NCBI GenBank assembly: GCA_900469625.1
Contig: UBXV01000037.1
Location: 62,697-126,696 of the forward strand
Direction of reading: 5' to 3'
Length of the DNA stretch: 64,000 nucleotides
From: Hyphomicrobiales bacterium
GTDB lineage: Bacteria > Pseudomonadota > Alphaproteobacteria > Rhizobiales > Rhizobiaceae
The notes beneath the pieces were generated by a model. The model had not been told where the DNA came from. It saw nothing but the letters and a program-made list of their open reading frames with translations, and made no database searches. The position numbers and the translations under genes are program-made. Positions within the stretch are counted from its first letter, which is position 1, and each line of letters starts with the position of its first letter. Below are positions 18,957 to 35,649 of the stretch, piece by piece.

Positions 18957-19370
18957 CTAATCGTCGCGCGGATTGAAACCAGGCTTCAGCCGGTCGGTTT
19001 CACGCCGCTCCTTCTTGGTGGGGCGCCCGGCTCCAGCCTCGCGCGTCGCCTGGTCGAAAGCGGAGAGTTTTTCCCGAGGCTCCGTGGGCGTCAGGTCTTC
19101 GTAAAGCAGCCGCGCCTCTTCATAGGGGCCGCGCCGCACACCTGGCAAAAGCACGCGCGCGATCACGTCGCGCCGCTCAAGCGAAAGGACAAGCACGTCG
19201 CCGGCCTTCAACTGGAAGGAGGATTGCTTGACCCGCTCGTCATTGATGATGACGTGCCCCGCCTCGATCGCCTTTTGGGCGAGCGAGCGGGACTTCATCA
19301 GGCGCGTGAAGAACAGCCATTTGTCGAGACGCTGGCGCGATGCCGGGTTGGACGACGACTGCTTCTCCAT
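18957..19370 (-). CDS. S4-domain RNA-binding protein (Hsp15/HslR-like)
   Basis: A 137-residue protein with an S4 RNA-binding domain at about 14-60 (RLDKWLFFTRLMKSRSLAQKA is the characteristic start, followed by GHVIINDERVKQSSFQLKAGD). A basic, low-complexity tail follows (TKKERRETDRLKPGF). The E. coli relative Hsp15 rescues stalled 50S subunits carrying nascent peptide. The gene follows the SUV3-like helicase with only a seven-base gap, so the two RNA-associated proteins are probably co-expressed. Confidence 0.87.
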   Translation of the reverse strand: MEKQSSSNPASRQRLDKWLFFTRLMKSRSLAQKAIEAGHVIINDERVKQSSFQLKAGDVLVLSLERRDVIARVLLPGVRRGPYEEARLLYEDLTPTEPREKLSAFDQATREAGAGRPTKKERRETDRLKPGFNPRDD

Positions 19371-19377
19371 GGCGTTC

Positions 19378-22300
19378 CTACTTCTTCATCTGCTCCTTGA
19401 GAGCAGCGAGCTTGGCAAAGGGCGAATCCGGGTCGATCGGCTTCTCCTTGCGGGGCGGGCGTGCCTCGAACTTGGCCGCCGCCGGCTTGCCGCCGCGATC
19501 GTGACGATCATGGCGATCCTGCCGCTGGCCACCCTCTGGCTTGCCGTCGTGGCGCTTGCCACGGGCCGGCGCGCCGCCCTTGCGACCACCACCTTCGCGG
19601 CCTTCGCCCTGGGCCTGGCCTTGTCCGTGACCCTGTCGCGGACCGCTGCCACGGCGCTGGTCGCCCTGATGACGGCCACCCTGGCGCTGGTTGTCCTGGC
19701 GGGTGCCCGGACGCCACAGAAGGACCGGCTTGGCTTCGGCAGCCTCGGCTCCCTCTTCCACCGGAGCGTCCGCCACGGCAACGTCGGCCACGGCAACGTC
19801 GGTTTCGGCCGCGACCGGTTCGCTGGAAGCCGGCGCTTCGGCTTCGGCCGACGCTTCACTCTCGACGCTTGCATCCGCATCGTCATGATCGGCGGGCGCT
19901 TCAGCGGCAGGCTCGGCCTGAACGGCGGCGCCGCCCTGGCTTGCCAGGAACGCGGCGGCGTCTTCGGCCTTCACGCTGTCGGCACGGTAGCCGAGACCCT
20001 TCAGGATTTCTTCCATGTCGTCAGGCGTTGCGCCGAGAATGGAAAGCATCGACGTCGTTGCGGTGAAGCGACGGCCGTCATAGGCCCCTTCCGGACGCGG
20101 CTGCGCACCCGGCTTCCACTGCAGCAACGGACGGATGAGATCCGCCAGGCGCTCGAGGATGTCGATGCGAACGGCACGCTTGCCGAGGAAACGGAAACCC
20201 GCGAGCTTGTAGAAAGTGCGCTCGAACGAGGGGTCGGTGACGACCGAGGTGCGGCCGGCGGCCAGCATCGGGATCAGATCGCCGTAGCCGGCCTTGTCGA
20301 GACCGTCGTTCTTCAGCGCCCAGAGCAGCGTGATGAGCTCGGCCGGCGCCGGCTTCAACAGCGCGGGGAGGAAGATGTGGTAGGCACCGAAGCGGACGCC
20401 GTACTTGCGGATCGAGGCCCGACCATCCTGGTCCAGCGACTTCACGTCTTCGGCCACATCGCGACGGAACAGGACGCCGAGGTTCTCGACGAGCTGGAAC
20501 GCCAGACCCTTGGCGAGGCCTTCGAGGTCCTCCGCGCGCGAGATATCGTCGAGCGGCTTCAGCACGGTGCCGATATGGTGGTTCACGAAGCGTTCGATGC
20601 GGGCGACGACGTGCTCGCGGGCATTGGCCTGCAGCTGCTCGTCGGCAAGCAAAATGACGCGCGGGCGCATGACGTGGTCGCTGGCGGTCAGCCGCGCCAC
20701 GGGATCGCCGAGCCAACGCACGAGGCCGTCCGAAGACAGGGCAAGGTCGCCGTTGCCGGACGCATGCAGACGCGCCGCACGCGCTTCGAACTCGAGCGCC
20801 AGCGCCTTCTGTGCTGCACCCTGCACAGCCTTGGCATCCGGTCCGTCTCCGCCGGTCGCCAGCGTAAACCGGAAACCGGTAAGTTGTCCTACGTGATGGC
20901 CTTCTACGAAGACGTCACCATTCACACTGATTTCAGCTTCCAGCATAGCATTCTCTCTCAGGCGCTTCATGAGCACAGATGTCCTGCGATCAACAAAGCG
21001 TTTCGTCAACCGTTCATGTAGTGCGTCGGACAATCGATCTTCAATTTCCCGCGTCTTTTCTTGCCAGTGTGTCGGATCGGCAAGCCATCCGGGTCGGTTC
21101 GACACATAGGTCCAAGTTCTGATCTGCGCGATTCGCGCCGAAAGTGTGTCGATCTCGCCGTCGGTCGAATCCGCACGTCGGACCTGTTCTGCCATGAAAT
21201 CCTCGTTCACGGCACCCCGACGAACGACATCAATATAGATCGTGGAGATCAGATCGGCGTGTTGAGCCGGCGTAATGCGGCGATAATCCGGCAACGCGCA
21301 GACTTCCCACAATTTCTCCACCCGCTCCGGCCTCGTCGCCAGATCGGCGACTTCGGGATAGCGTGACAAATGTTCGAGCGCCTGCTGATCCACCGCAGGT
21401 AGTGCGCGCGCGAGACCCGGAATGGTCGGCGCGGCATCAAGGCTGCGCTTCAGGGCCGCCAGCGACGCGTAGTCGAAGGCCTTGGTGCGCCATTGCAGAA
21501 CCTTCAGCGGATCGAATTCATGCGCTTCGATACGGTGCACCAGTTCGTTGTCGAAAGGATCGACCCGACCGGTAACGCCGAACGTGCCGTCGCGCAGATG
21601 TCGCCCGGCGCGCCCGGCGATCTGCGCCAGTTCTGCCGGATTGAGATTGCGGAACTGGTAGCCGTCGAACTTGCGGTCCTGCGCGAAGGCGACATGGTCG
21701 ACATCGAGATTCAGGCCCATGCCGATCGCATCGGTCGCCACCAGGAATTCGACGTCGCCCTCCTGATAGAGTGCGACCTGGGCGTTGCGCGTGCGGGGCG
21801 ACAGCGCGCCGAGCACGACGGCGGCGCCGCCGCGCTGACGGCGGATCAGCTCGGCGATCGCATAGACCTCGTCGGCCGAAAAGGCGACGATCGCCGTGCG
21901 ATGCGGCAGGCGGGTGATTTTTTTCGATCCGGCATAAAGCAATTGCGACATGCGCGGTCGTTCGACCACGGTGATGCCCGGCAGCAGCTGCTCGAGGATC
22001 GGCCGCATCGTCGCAGCACCCAGGAGCAAGGTCTCGCCACGGCCGCGCAGATAGAGCAGCCGGTCGGTGAAGATGTGGCCGCGCTCGAGATCGCCGGCAA
22101 GCTGCACCTCGTCGATCGCGACGAAGGACGCCGCCGTCTCGCGCGGCATCGCCTCGACGGTACACACCGAATAGCGGGCACGATGCGGCGTGATCTTTTC
22201 CTCGCCGGTGATCAGCGCGACGTTGTGATGACCGACCTTTTCGACCACACGGGTATAGACCTCGCGCGCCAGAAGGCGCAGCGGCAGCCCGATGACGCCG

Positions 22301-22428
22301 CTGTCGTGCGCGATCATGCGCTCGATCGCATAGTGCGTCTTGCCGGTGTTGGTTGGCCCGAGCACCGCGGTAACGCCGCGGCCGCTCAGGATCATGGGGT
22401 GAACGGACACGTCATCGATCCCGGGCAT
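19378..22428 (-). CDS. SUV3-like ATP-dependent RNA helicase with disordered C-terminal tail
   Basis: A 1016-residue superfamily 2 helicase. Motif I is GPTNTGKT (24-31), motif II is IDEVQ (105-109), motif V region is ATDAIGMGLN (231-240) and motif VI is QIAGRAGR (269-276). GPTNTGKT, DEVQ and this motif VI are typical of SUV3, the mitochondrial RNA-degradosome helicase, whose bacterial relatives are in alphaproteobacteria. A helical region follows to about residue 830. The last 180 residues are low-complexity: an Ala/Glu-rich acidic part, then a Gly/Gln/Arg/His-rich part resembling RNA-binding tails. The start has no strong ribosome binding site; Met12 is an alternative. It sits just downstream of a GANTC-rich region. 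Confidence 0.86.
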   Translation of the reverse strand: MPGIDDVSVHPMILSGRGVTAVLGPTNTGKTHYAIERMIAHDSGVIGLPLRLLAREVYTRVVEKVGHHNVALITGEEKITPHRARYSVCTVEAMPRETAASFVAIDEVQLAGDLERGHIFTDRLLYLRGRGETLLLGAATMRPILEQLLPGITVVERPRMSQLLYAGSKKITRLPHRTAIVAFSADEVYAIAELIRRQRGGAAVVLGALSPRTRNAQVALYQEGDVEFLVATDAIGMGLNLDVDHVAFAQDRKFDGYQFRNLNPAELAQIAGRAGRHLRDGTFGVTGRVDPFDNELVHRIEAHEFDPLKVLQWRTKAFDYASLAALKRSLDAAPTIPGLARALPAVDQQALEHLSRYPEVADLATRPERVEKLWEVCALPDYRRITPAQHADLISTIYIDVVRRGAVNEDFMAEQVRRADSTDGEIDTLSARIAQIRTWTYVSNRPGWLADPTHWQEKTREIEDRLSDALHERLTKRFVDRRTSVLMKRLRENAMLEAEISVNGDVFVEGHHVGQLTGFRFTLATGGDGPDAKAVQGAAQKALALEFEARAARLHASGNGDLALSSDGLVRWLGDPVARLTASDHVMRPRVILLADEQLQANAREHVVARIERFVNHHIGTVLKPLDDISRAEDLEGLAKGLAFQLVENLGVLFRRDVAEDVKSLDQDGRASIRKYGVRFGAYHIFLPALLKPAPAELITLLWALKNDGLDKAGYGDLIPMLAAGRTSVVTDPSFERTFYKLAGFRFLGKRAVRIDILERLADLIRPLLQWKPGAQPRPEGAYDGRRFTATTSMLSILGATPDDMEEILKGLGYRADSVKAEDAAAFLASQGGAAVQAEPAAEAPADHDDADASVESEASAEAEAPASSEPVAAETDVAVADVAVADAPVEEGAEAAEAKPVLLWRPGTRQDNQRQGGRHQGDQRRGSGPRQGHGQGQAQGEGREGGGRKGGAPARGKRHDGKPEGGQRQDRHDRHDRGGKPAAAKFEARPPRKEKPIDPDSPFAKLAALKEQMKK

Positions 22429-22567
22429 TCAGAAACATAAGTGGCGCCTTAAAGCGCCGGCGGCAAACACATGCCCACGCACCGCGGCAAACGCAAGGGG
22501 CGCCGGCAACTAAAACCATTTCCCGGCAGATCCGCTCACGCCCGTACCACCATATCTGGAGGCGCGA

Positions 22568-22935
22568 TATTAACGTTCGGAACAGCCATGGAACGAATCG
22601 GCGACGAATCGCTGACTCCAGTCGATTCACTGTATGTTCACGGCTACATATAGATTTCAACCGCCAATCACGCACCACATGCTGAATCCCGTCGTGGGCC
22701 GCCTGTAAGACAGGGATCGTTGACGTTAATCTCGGTTGCGCAAGCGTTAAAGGCGGCAAAGGATTCGGAATCCAAGACTCTGGAAAGTTTAGGAAATTTT
22801 AACCGAAGAATCCGGCCGATTCAGCGGAATCGGGAAATGGGAATCGCGACGTTAACACATTGACCAAAGCCGGAACGAACCGGCGACGAATCGACGACAT
22901 CCCTTCGTTCGATCTTTGTTCTCCACAACATATAG
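22568..22935. repeat. Two imperfect direct repeats of about 86 bases with fixed internal spacing
   Basis: Copy 1 (22568-22653) and copy 2 (22850-22935) share three blocks in the same order and at identical spacing. TTAAC starts at 22570 / 22852. A 22-base block GGAACGAA(T/C)CGG + CGACGAATCG starts at 22590 / 22872 with one mismatch. ACATATAG starts at 22646 / 22928. Offset between copies is 282 bases for every block. The intervening bases are not conserved. Confidence 0.72.
22595..22892. other. Cluster of thirteen GANTC (CcrM) sites
   Basis: GANTC occurs at 22595, 22606, 22614, 22624, 22684, 22762, 22768, 22776, 22808, 22818, 22827, 22841 and 22888. At this base composition about one site would be expected in 298 bases. 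GANTC is the target of the alphaproteobacterial cell-cycle methyltransferase CcrM. The sites are read directly from sequence; any regulatory role is inference. Confidence 0.85.
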
Positions 22936-23048
22936 TATGCTGAACCATGCCGGGCAACGGCTGCAGGACCTGTTTCTGGCAGCCATTCGGCAAATTTCCG
23001 CCTGTCGTTAACCGTCTCTGCGGGGGCCCGGCATGCGCTGAATGGCAA

Positions 23049-23073
23049 GACGGCGCCCCGAGGGAGCGCCGTC
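23049..23073 (-). terminator. Terminator-like stem after phbB
   Basis: A strong inverted repeat GACGGCGC / GCGCCGTC with a nine-base loop lies 24 bases after the phbB stop. No T-run follows on the minus strand, so it may terminate only partly or protect the mRNA 3' end. Confidence 0.5.
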
Positions 23074-23096
23074 CAACAAAAAATTCAATCGCCCGA

Positions 23097-23822
23097 TCAG
23101 ACGAAAAATTGCCCGCCATTGGCAGATATGGTCGAGCCGGTGATGAACCCGGCGTCGTCGGATGCAAGGAAGACCACGCAGCGCGCGATCTCTTCCGGCT
23201 CGCCCAGGCGGCCGACGGGGATCTGCGGGATGATCCGCTCGGTGAGAACCTTTTCCGGAATGGCGCGCACCATTTCCGTGCCGATGTATCCCGGGCAGAT
23301 CGCGTTGACGGTGATGCCCTTGGCAGCGCCCTCCTGCGACAGCGCCTTGGTGAAGCCAAGGTCGCCGGCCTTGGCGGCCGAATAGTTGGCCTGGCCCATC
23401 TGGCCCTTCTGGCCGTTGATCGACGAAATGTTGATCACGCGGCCGAAGCTGCGGTCGCGCATGCCCGTCCAGACCGGGTGGGTCATGTTGAAAAGGCCGG
23501 TGAGGTTGGTGTTGATCACCTCGCCCCATTGTTCCGGCGTCATCTTGTGGAACATGGCGTCGCGGGTGATGCCGGCGTTGTTGACGAGCACCTCGACCGG
23601 CCCGAGATCGGCCTCGACCCTGGCGATGCCGTCGACGCAGGACTGGTAGTTGGAGACATCCCACTTGTAGACCGGGATGCCGGTCTCCGCCTTGAAGGCC
23701 TCTGCCTTCTCGTCATTGCCGGCGTAGTTGGCAGCAACCTTGTATCCTGCATTCTTCAGCGCGATGGAGATCGCGGCGCCAATGCCGCGTGACCCGCCCG
23801 TAACCAATGCTACCCTGCTCAT
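23097..23822 (-). CDS. phbB: Acetoacetyl-CoA reductase
   Basis: A 241-residue short-chain dehydrogenase that reduces acetoacetyl-CoA to (R)-3-hydroxybutyryl-CoA with NADPH, the second step of polyhydroxybutyrate synthesis. The cofactor motif is TGGSRGIG (8-15), the NNAG motif is at 81-84, and the catalytic residues are Ser134, Tyr147 and Lys151 in NISSINGQKGQMGQANYSAAK. This last block and FHKMTPEQWGEVINTNLTG are highly specific for PhaB/PhbB. Length matches the family (about 240-246). It lies downstream of phbA with a small secreted-protein gene between them, all on the minus strand. Confidence 0.95.
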   Translation of the reverse strand: MSRVALVTGGSRGIGAAISIALKNAGYKVAANYAGNDEKAEAFKAETGIPVYKWDVSNYQSCVDGIARVEADLGPVEVLVNNAGITRDAMFHKMTPEQWGEVINTNLTGLFNMTHPVWTGMRDRSFGRVINISSINGQKGQMGQANYSAAKAGDLGFTKALSQEGAAKGITVNAICPGYIGTEMVRAIPEKVLTERIIPQIPVGRLGEPEEIARCVVFLASDDAGFITGSTISANGGQFFV

Positions 23823-34599: not shown

Positions 34600-35378
34600 C
34601 TCTCGCTTGCCTCCGCCATGACGATAGCCGTTCCAGAAGTTCCGAAGGCGGCGACGTAGGTTGCCGGCGCATCCGCCTCCAGCACCAGCGTCGTCACCGC
34701 GTCGATGCCGACAACCGCGTGGGCCGCAGCCGTCCCGAGCTTGTCGTTGGTGACGGCGACGAGCACGGCGCGGCTGCGCGAAGCCACCAGCCGCTTGAAC
34801 TCGGCGTCTTCGAAATAGATTGCCGTCAGTCCAGCATCGGCGTCGGCGCCACAGGTGCCGAGAATGCAGAGATCAGGCCGAAGCTGTTCGATATCGCGCT
34901 GCGCGCGCGCTCCGACGGCAGCGCCGACGGCGCGGTTGAGGGGACCGCCGACGAGGATCAGGTCGATCTCAGGCTTCTCCATCAGGGCGGCAGCAATCAG
35001 CGGCGTATTGGTGACGATGGTCGCCTTCAGCTCTGGCGCGATCAGCTGGGCGATGGCGAGGTTGGCCGAGCCGGCATCGAGGAACACCGTGCTCCCAGGC
35101 GCGATGAAGCCGACCGACGCGCGGGCAAGGGCTGCCTTGCGTTCCGGCGCCATGGCGACGCGCTGACTGAGGGTCAACGAGCTCGGCGCCAGCGGCAACG
35201 CACCACCATAGACCCGCTCGCAGAGGCCGGCTGCCGCCATCTCGCGCAGGTCGCGCCGGATGGTGTCTTCGGACACCCGAAATTCCGCGGCAAGGTCTGC
35301 CGCCAGCACTCGGCCATCGACCTTCAGCCGTTCCTGAATCAACGATTTTCGTTCGCGAAGAAGAAGTTCCGTGGACAC
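34596..35378 (-). CDS. DeoR/GlpR-family transcriptional regulator
   Basis: A 260-residue regulator. The N-terminal helix-turn-helix (about 24-50) includes AAEFRVSEDTIRRDLREM, the DeoR signature. The C-terminal DeoRC sugar-phosphate sensor domain includes GSTVFLDAGSANLAIAQLI and ILVGGPLNRAVGAAVG. The gene heads the deoR - VOC - MFS operon and is coupled to the VOC gene by ATGA. Three GTGCAT hexamers lie 11-46 bases upstream of its start, a plausible autoregulatory operator. The inducer is probably a phosphorylated sugar, by family analogy. Confidence 0.9.
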   Translation of the reverse strand: MSTELLLRERKSLIQERLKVDGRVLAADLAAEFRVSEDTIRRDLREMAAAGLCERVYGGALPLAPSSLTLSQRVAMAPERKAALARASVGFIAPGSTVFLDAGSANLAIAQLIAPELKATIVTNTPLIAAALMEKPEIDLILVGGPLNRAVGAAVGARAQRDIEQLRPDLCILGTCGADADAGLTAIYFEDAEFKRLVASRSRAVLVAVTNDKLGTAAAHAVVGIDAVTTLVLEADAPATYVAAFGTSGTAIVMAEASER

Positions 35379-35388
35379 TCGGCAAACC

Positions 35389-35424
35389 GTGCATAAACGT
35401 GCATGAATCGATGAAAATGTGCAT
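35389..35424. promoter_or_regulatory. Three phased GTGCAT direct repeats upstream of deoR
   Basis: GTGCAT occurs at 35389, 35399 and 35419, separated by 10 and 20 bases, so all sit on one face of the helix. Extended half-sites are CGTGCATAAA, CGTGCATGAA and TGTGCATACC. Position immediately upstream of deoR suggests its operator; the divergent binding-protein gene starts about 225 bases away. Confidence 0.55.
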
Positions 35425-35649
35425 ACCGAATTTTGAAAGCGATTTCAACCTCGATTCCATGGCAAAATCGAAAACGGCCAGATTTGGCGACAGGCGCACT
35501 TTTTGGATGAATATTCTCCCGATCCGGGGAAAAATCTTCATCAAAACGGTCAGGAATTGGAGTTTTGTGCGCTCAAGCAGCGATTTTTTTGTGCGATTCT
35601 CCCCTCAATCCGGACGACGGGCCGGAAGATAGAAAGATGGAAAGACACG

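Follow-up and report, generated by a model that had tools for sequence, protein, structure and literature searches.

The GANTC cluster upstream of a Suv3-like helicase gene in the window, i.e. the whole stretch of 64,000 nucleotides analysed here, was found to hold two direct copies of an element of approximately 80 bp, both on the minus strand and both in the same intergenic gap (Table 1). It is very probable that this element is an old, helicase-linked DNA control element. The best single reading of its function, to which we give about the same weight for and against, is that of a promoter/operator array of the helicase operon that responds to methylation and to GcrA.

The GANTC cluster and its repeated element

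All 13 GANTC sites listed in the initial annotation were recovered by direct recount within 298 intergenic bases. The three forms GAATC, GACTC and GATTC named there are indeed present; they represent, however, only two kinds of site, because GACTC and GAGTC are one site read on two strands, and likewise GAATC and GATTC. The expectation of about one site was slightly low, since shuffling of the 298-base segment gave a mean of 2.1, but the conclusion of an excess holds, the maximum in 2000 shuffles being 8 and 13 never being reached. Among the 256 patterns of the form NN-N-NN, GANTC was the most enriched in the segment, with 13 sites observed versus 0.33 expected from the window. The pattern is depleted over the whole 64-kb window (70 observed versus 343.5 expected from shuffles), and the cluster thus stands out even more. 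A scan of 864 kb of the 6.54-Mb genome, comprising the window and 40 stretches of 20 kb, revealed 669 GANTC sites (0.774 per kb) and no comparable cluster, the runner-up 298-base window having 4 sites. Chance occurrence in AT-rich intergenic DNA was therefore ruled out by the shuffles and the scan together. The second-densest GANTC group of the window is found at 35336-35599, with 4 sites in 264 bases.

Table 1. Features of the helicase locus and its upstream gap, with positions in the window
Feature	Position	Strand	Basis or remark
GANTC cluster (13 sites)	22595..22892	.	direct count, shuffles, 864-kb scan
Helicase-proximal element copy, four GANTC spaced 10-8-11 bp	22574..22653	-	models R1/R2, E 3.7e-19 / 4.8e-16; alignments A2, A4
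Distal direct element copy, second core site GGTTC and not GANTC	22858..22936	-	R1 E 1.8e-16; alignment A1
Core of proximal copy, GATTCGTCGCCGATTCGTTC	22591..22610	-	pattern search, column frequencies
Invariant YGATTCG site of proximal copy	22606-22610		
Second site of proximal copy, 11 bp on	22595-22599		
Core of distal copy, GATTCGTCGCCGGTTCGTTC	22873..22892	-	pattern search
Seven GANTC between the two copies	22762..22845	.	site count
Conserved upstream GANTC (GATTCagcat..)	22684..22688	.	78 bp before core site, in 37/55 non-redundant proximal copies
CTATAT, tentative candidate -10 hexamer at upstream edge of proximal copy	22648..22653	-	column pattern CnAnAT
Second promoter-like block CTTGCG-N18-CATGTG, just upstream of helicase	22468..22497	-	pattern search
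LexA-like GTTCN7GTTC overlapping proximal copy	22580..22594	-	pattern search
GTTCN7GTTC of distal copy (GAACN7GAAC in helicase orientation)	22907..22921	+	pattern search
Suv3-like helicase, linked gene	19378..22428	-	Pfam DEXQc_Suv3 5.8e-26 and Helicase_C; PDB Suv3 helicase 3.5e-38
S4-domain RNA-binding protein, next gene downstream of helicase	18957..19370	-	
phaB, upstream neighbour	23097..23822	-	

The helicase and phaB genes are separated by 668 bases (22429-23096), and the cluster is located in this gap. The helicase domains were confirmed with Pfam, in agreement with the initial description of the sites as intergenic and upstream of a SUV3-like helicase. The open reading frames listed across the cluster look spurious. 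A coding role of the element was rejected, since each frame across it is closed in at least some of the 76 proximal copies (one of the window, 75 of relatives); the best frame is open in 44 of the 76 over 90 bases and in 60 over 63 bases, and the offset from element to helicase is spread evenly over the three frames (28, 24 and 24 copies).

The element was described by two models, R1, a sequence-only model built from 35 copies, and R2, built from 141 copies. In the organism's own genome only the two copies of Table 1 were convincing with R1, the next match having an E value of 0.018. The two copies form a direct repeat, D1, with 72% identity over 64 nt and a spacing of 282, and the core pattern, allowing up to 3 mismatches, matched twice in 64 kb versus 0.04 times expected. 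In helicase orientation the consensus reads CnAnATnTnG..GTGAACRAA....GAA.........GTCAGYGATTCG.....GATTCGTTCC.....TGTTCC. Its first core site, GATTCG, is present in all 138 copies of alignment A4, from which three reverse-strand rows were left out and gap-bearing rows were dropped column by column; these three rows are likewise absent from the counts on RNA structure, on the flanks of the more distant loci and on the middle base N given below. It is preceded by C or T in 137 of the 137 readable copies, a figure to be taken as an upper bound because the models used to select the copies were themselves weighted towards this core. In the wide set the second core site is far more variable, with GANTC retained by just 46 of 118 copies and YGAKTCK by 42 of 117. 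Other strongly conserved letters are GAAC..A, GAA, TTCGTTC and GTTC. In addition, 21 of 91 non-redundant copies have GTTAA, of the CtrA TTAA half-site type, at column 79.

The spacing of the sites is fixed as well. GANTC starts at columns 25, 35, 43, 54 and 65 in 43, 40, 138, 46 and 21 copies, respectively, so that the main start columns are 10, 8, 11 and 11 bases apart. After removal of redundancy at identity cut-offs of 70-80%, by which 55 of the 76 proximal copies were kept, the positions rich in GANTC with respect to the core were -78, -61, -18, -8, 0, +11, +22 and +32. Neighbouring copies follow each other at 202-288 bases in 69 of 82 pairs and at 436-1753 bases in the remaining 13. Furthermore, five Ensifer/Sinorhizobium relatives (L001-L005) have the block GAGTC-ttg-GATTC-c-GAATCct, exactly or nearly so.

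The upstream edge of the element, CnAnAT, looks like a sigma70-type promoter. The tentative -10 hexamer of the proximal copy has TGGTGC, a weak candidate -35, 18 nt further upstream, and a CnAnAT edge preceded at 18-19 bases by a weak T[TAG]G[TC], at -24/-25, was seen in 35 of the 91 copies. Scanning the gap of the window for promoters of the E. coli type gave none. A block like CTTGCG-N18-CATGTG occurs in 52 of the 76 proximal loci, with a spacer of 18 in 51 of these 52. If transcription starts where CnAnAT suggests, the core would be placed at about +30 and not between -35 and -10, and GANTC at -61, inside the presumed promoter spacer, is present in only 11 of the 55 proximal copies. In Caulobacter, genes activated at 40-60 min are associated with GANTC placed between -35 and -10, and another timing class with GANTC outside that interval (PMC4287350).

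Conservation of the element and its gene context

Of the two refuting outcomes named in the initial annotation, neither was observed: the 864 kb scanned held no comparable cluster, and most close relatives keep the cluster with fixed spacings. Among the best 80 of 583 relatives, the element was detected with R2 in 76, the exceptions being L007, L010, L011 and L015; these near-relative loci have one to four copies upstream of the helicase and in its direction, lying between helicase and phaB wherever phaB is present. A sample of the order yielded the element in 180 of 249 genomes and 82 of 112 genera (E≤0.01). In a sample of the class with 289 genomes, 30 matched with R1 and 35 with R2, and 29 of them reached E≤1e-5 with R2; among the class positives are the genome of the organism itself and two more from the same order.

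In 27 of the 29 strong class matches the element is found upstream of the helicase gene, at a distance of up to about 1 kb, and on the same strand. Of the 64 loci L093-L156, 55 have the helicase, and the other nine are four weak matches of the own genome, three weak partial matches, L138 and L139. Five of the six weaker class matches are apart from the helicase, and one (G338, E 0.003) adjoins it. The linkage seen in the 27 strong matches, in the direction of the helicase, speaks against the element being a chromosomal titration or timing site, i.e. a sink for CcrM or GcrA or a structural mark that is independent of the helicase gene. That idea would agree with the tandem arrays of many sites, whose density is unmatched in the scanned 864 kb, and with two genomes, G302, in which the element is present but no helicase was detected, and G448, where MerR/MerT-type genes separate the two; G302, however, is a single case with a 93%-complete genome, and we judge the titration site to be very unlikely.

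Both genomes are described here in their own right. In G302 (locus L138, 1501-1574; E 3.7e-12) the element is positioned just before a LolA-like gene, and either the helicase is missing from the assembly or the element has another use there. In G448 (locus L139) genes with MerR, MerT and heavy-metal domains occupy 2-1187 between the element and the helicase, which follows 4.7 kb from the element on the same strand; these genes look like a mercury-resistance insert.

A mobile repeat, phage or plasmid element was considered and rejected, as the own genome has two copies, both at one locus. A search of phage sequences with the element gave no match. The plasmid collection gave five matches, and the two records that were opened carry the helicase locus. 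Four records filed as plasmids (CP090106.1, NZ_CP104131.1, NZ_CP104135.1 and NZ_CP104127.1) are 3.5-3.7 Mb long and CP090106.1, titled pSymB, holds the helicase-phaB-rpmF region, so that they look like chromosomes under plasmid names.

Downstream of the helicase the window encodes the S4-domain protein, a ferredoxin and a CarD-type regulator. Upstream, phaB stands beside the element only in loci of the same family among the 55 helicase-bearing loci. The helicase is taken as the orthologue of S. meliloti SMc03877 (mgpS), matched by description and by neighbouring locus numbers only (rpoH2 is SMc03873 and mgpS is SMc03877). In the S. meliloti record the order is phaB-type reductase, element, helicase and S4 gene, and the gene table of that record, which is incomplete, lists no gene under the element. 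The RNA helicase mgpS is mentioned among acid-induced helicases of S. meliloti (PMC4941405). Some genera have a glycine-zipper gene and a DUF3309 gene between the element copies or between phaB and the copies. The pair runs in the opposite direction between phaB and helicase in L041, L049, L028, L016, L031 and L327, being named in L327, recognised with Pfam in L031 and identified by eye in the others; the 668-base gap of the window has neither gene.

Methylation, GcrA and other candidate readers of the element

The enrichment of GANTC extends beyond the core. In the 240 bp around the 55 non-redundant proximal copies GANTC reaches 26.7 per kb, and still 14.1 per kb outside the core. The helicase genes of these loci have 1.2 GANTC per kb, and nine control patterns occur at 1.4-5.8 per kb within those 240 bp. 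At 79 more distant loci the flanks have 6.45 GANTC per kb versus 1.22 more than 500 bp downstream, the values for seven control patterns in these flanks being 1.4-4.2. Conservation of the element nevertheless goes beyond the mere keeping of methylation sites. Since most copies of the wide set lack GANTC at the second core site, methylation cannot by itself account for the conservation. A free middle base N, sought as a mark of selection for methylation only, was not seen either, its variation at the four variable sites not exceeding that of the remaining positions. The interpretation given in the initial annotation is supported in part, in that the cluster is unusual and conserved, whereas the conserved unit turned out to be the ~80-bp element, of which GANTC is only part; the cluster might act as a methylation switch.

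GcrA and a CcrM-like protein are both encoded in the own genome, GcrA being recognised by PF07750 (E 3.8e-64) and the CcrM-like protein by a RAMA domain (E 3.1e-18) in a frame of 387 amino acids. The RAMA domain is presumably a mark of the CcrM type, and among 14 control genomes it was matched in Caulobacter only. Two reports on Caulobacter propose TGATTCG, more broadly YGAKTCK, as the extended site for activation by GcrA (PMC7987155, PMC8725594), and the core YGATTCG of the element fits this extended site exactly. Among 187 helicase-bearing genomes of the class, the element is present in 28 of the 78 with GcrA at E≤1e-30 and in none of the other 109; with helicases of matched similarity the counts are 20 of 39 with strong GcrA and 0 of 42 without. 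These comparisons ignore phylogeny, and their positives are only the 29 of 35 class matches with E≤1e-5, all of which have GcrA at E≤1e-34. Counting against the link, no strong match of the element was obtained in 18 genomes that bear the helicase and have GcrA at about E 1e-43 or better. Rewiring of GcrA targets has been reported even among closely related species, and B. subvibrioides reportedly shows no preference for the extended motif (PMC7987155); both observations sit badly with a GcrA site conserved class-wide.

On the GcrA reading the cluster would be a cis-acting DNA control region of the helicase operon, composed of tandem ~80-bp copies, each combining the putative promoter edge CnAnAT, two inverted GAACRAA-type arms, the central YGATTCG and further GANTC sites phased mostly at 10-11 bp. 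CcrM would methylate the GANTC sites late in S phase, and the fully methylated YGATTCG would recruit GcrA together with sigma70 RNA polymerase; alternatively, full methylation might keep a repressor off the arms. Passage of the replication fork would leave all sites hemimethylated together, and with many phased sites the response could be steep, helicase expression then tracking the replication of the locus. A bolder version is that of an ancestral alphaproteobacterial replication-passage sensor, in which GcrA, or another reader, would read the phased methylation sites cooperatively within one nucleoprotein complex. Fork passage would then give a sharp pulse of the RNA-decay helicase and so tie RNA turnover to the cell cycle throughout the class, and in some lineages the sensor would work even without the helicase. 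We regard this version as rather improbable.

The arms of the element admit a different reader. Each of the window's two copies overlaps an exact GTTCN7GTTC, the rule for an alphaproteobacterial LexA box, and the 668-base gap thus holds two of them versus 1.8 expected per 64 kb. Across the alignment the right arm is exact in 59 of 117 copies and fits GTTCN7GNNC in 91 of 117, and the left arm has GAACN7GAA in 99 of 133, although the full GAACN7GAAC in only 16 of 133. The copies might then form a LexA operator array, with the helicase in the SOS regulon and GANTC secondary. A survey of exact boxes only, covering 30 recA loci of the order from 46 genomes, found at least one box upstream of recA in 20 of them, the position being uncertain in one case, and of 22 such boxes 16 start with GAACA and 3 with GAACAAA, like the left arm; the lexA locus of the own genome holds GTTCCATATGTGTTC. 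On the other hand, the most conserved part of the element, the YGATTCG centre, is not explained by LexA, and the helicase is not named in titles or abstract starts among the matches listed. A LexA array is consequently held to be a doubtful main explanation, and SOS control of the helicase stays a live, partial rival because of the two exact boxes in the gap of the window. About 193 bases before the RecA domain match of the own-genome recA locus (L197) there is a GAACN7GAAC box, GAACATGAATCGAAC, with GANTC in its spacer, so that methylation could touch a LexA-type operator there too.

Alternatively, some other DNA-binding protein may recognise the element as a dyad with GAACRAA arms and YGATTCG at the centre, methylation being minor and the GANTC density a by-product. 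The inverted arms are separated by 42 bp, equal to some four turns of the helix, and in four copies the models give a match on the reverse strand as well. Conserved letters lie outside GANTC, and the second core site drifts away from it, all of which would agree with such a protein. It would, however, leave unexplained that the flanks outside the element are enriched for GANTC and not for patterns of the same composition, and that every strong class positive is accompanied by a high-scoring GcrA. We consider this protein unlikely to be the main reader.

The downstream gene encodes an RNA helicase, and the regularly spaced tandem copies each have a promoter-like edge, from which tandem small RNA genes or a leader autoregulating the helicase mRNA might be imagined. 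GAAUC and GAUUC could pair in such a transcript, and 95.9% of the cells were paired in alignment A2, which is no more than in shuffles. The alignments contain 0 pairs with both sides changed, RNAalifold found no structure in 89 diverse copies, and the folding z-scores of 40 copies were weak and no better than those of the other strand. Rfam gave no match above threshold in 22300-23200. With no covariation, an RNA leader or small RNA was rejected as the leading reading, and a transcribed RNA element of either kind seems quite unlikely. A PhotoRC-I match in Rfam at 22977-23027 on the plus strand (16.3 bits, E 0.19, threshold 45) is probably due to chance.

Significance and comparison with known systems

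Bacterial promoter sequences can seldom be aligned with few gaps across the orders of a class; the present element can, and its alignment centres on an invariant methylation site. If GcrA reads the element, its conservation would be striking for a CcrM/GcrA target and contrary to the idea of a freely rewired regulon, and a little-studied Suv3-like RNA helicase would join the cell-cycle programme in rhizobia and other alphaproteobacteria. If it does not, another conserved regulator would stand behind the element. Either way, a short and defined DNA fragment offers a direct test of readers of hemimethylated GANTC. Literature searches revealed no description of the element among the matches listed and their passages, and a search by the core letters gave no title on the subject among the matches listed.

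Promoters regulated by GcrA and CcrM in Caulobacter include ctrA P1 and those of mipZ, ftsZ and podJ. The helicase locus resembles them, as far as the reports were available, in having GANTC upstream of the gene, a core that fits TGATTCG/YGAKTCK, and encoded GcrA and CcrM (PMC7987155, PMC8725594). Of 96 cell-cycle start sites preceded by GANTC in Caulobacter, 11 had two or more such sites within 50 bp (PMC4287350). Unlike those promoters, the present locus has 13 sites in 298 bp, arranged on a tandem ~80-bp element that is conserved in its spacing, recurs in many families and precedes one helicase. Compared with alphaproteobacterial LexA boxes, the arms of the element match fully or partly, but most left arms lack a second full half-site and the invariant centre has no LexA counterpart. 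Promoter GANTC is likewise a feature of the hypomethylated promoters shielded by MucR in S. meliloti and Caulobacter, where the methylation state is set by the bound protein; the helicase locus is not named in the passages of that work consulted (PMC5172544).

Among the literature searched, the nearest printed precedent is the gcrA promoter of Agrobacterium, judging from the sections of the report at hand (PMC11514494). The same sections describe six GANTC sites in the 250 bp upstream of A. tumefaciens gcrA, whose methylation is proposed to repress this gene, and note no repeated ~80-bp element there, unlike at the helicase (PMC11514494). What the two loci have in common is the over-representation of GANTC upstream of the gene, combined in the case of gcrA with a proposed control through methylation by CcrM (PMC11514494).
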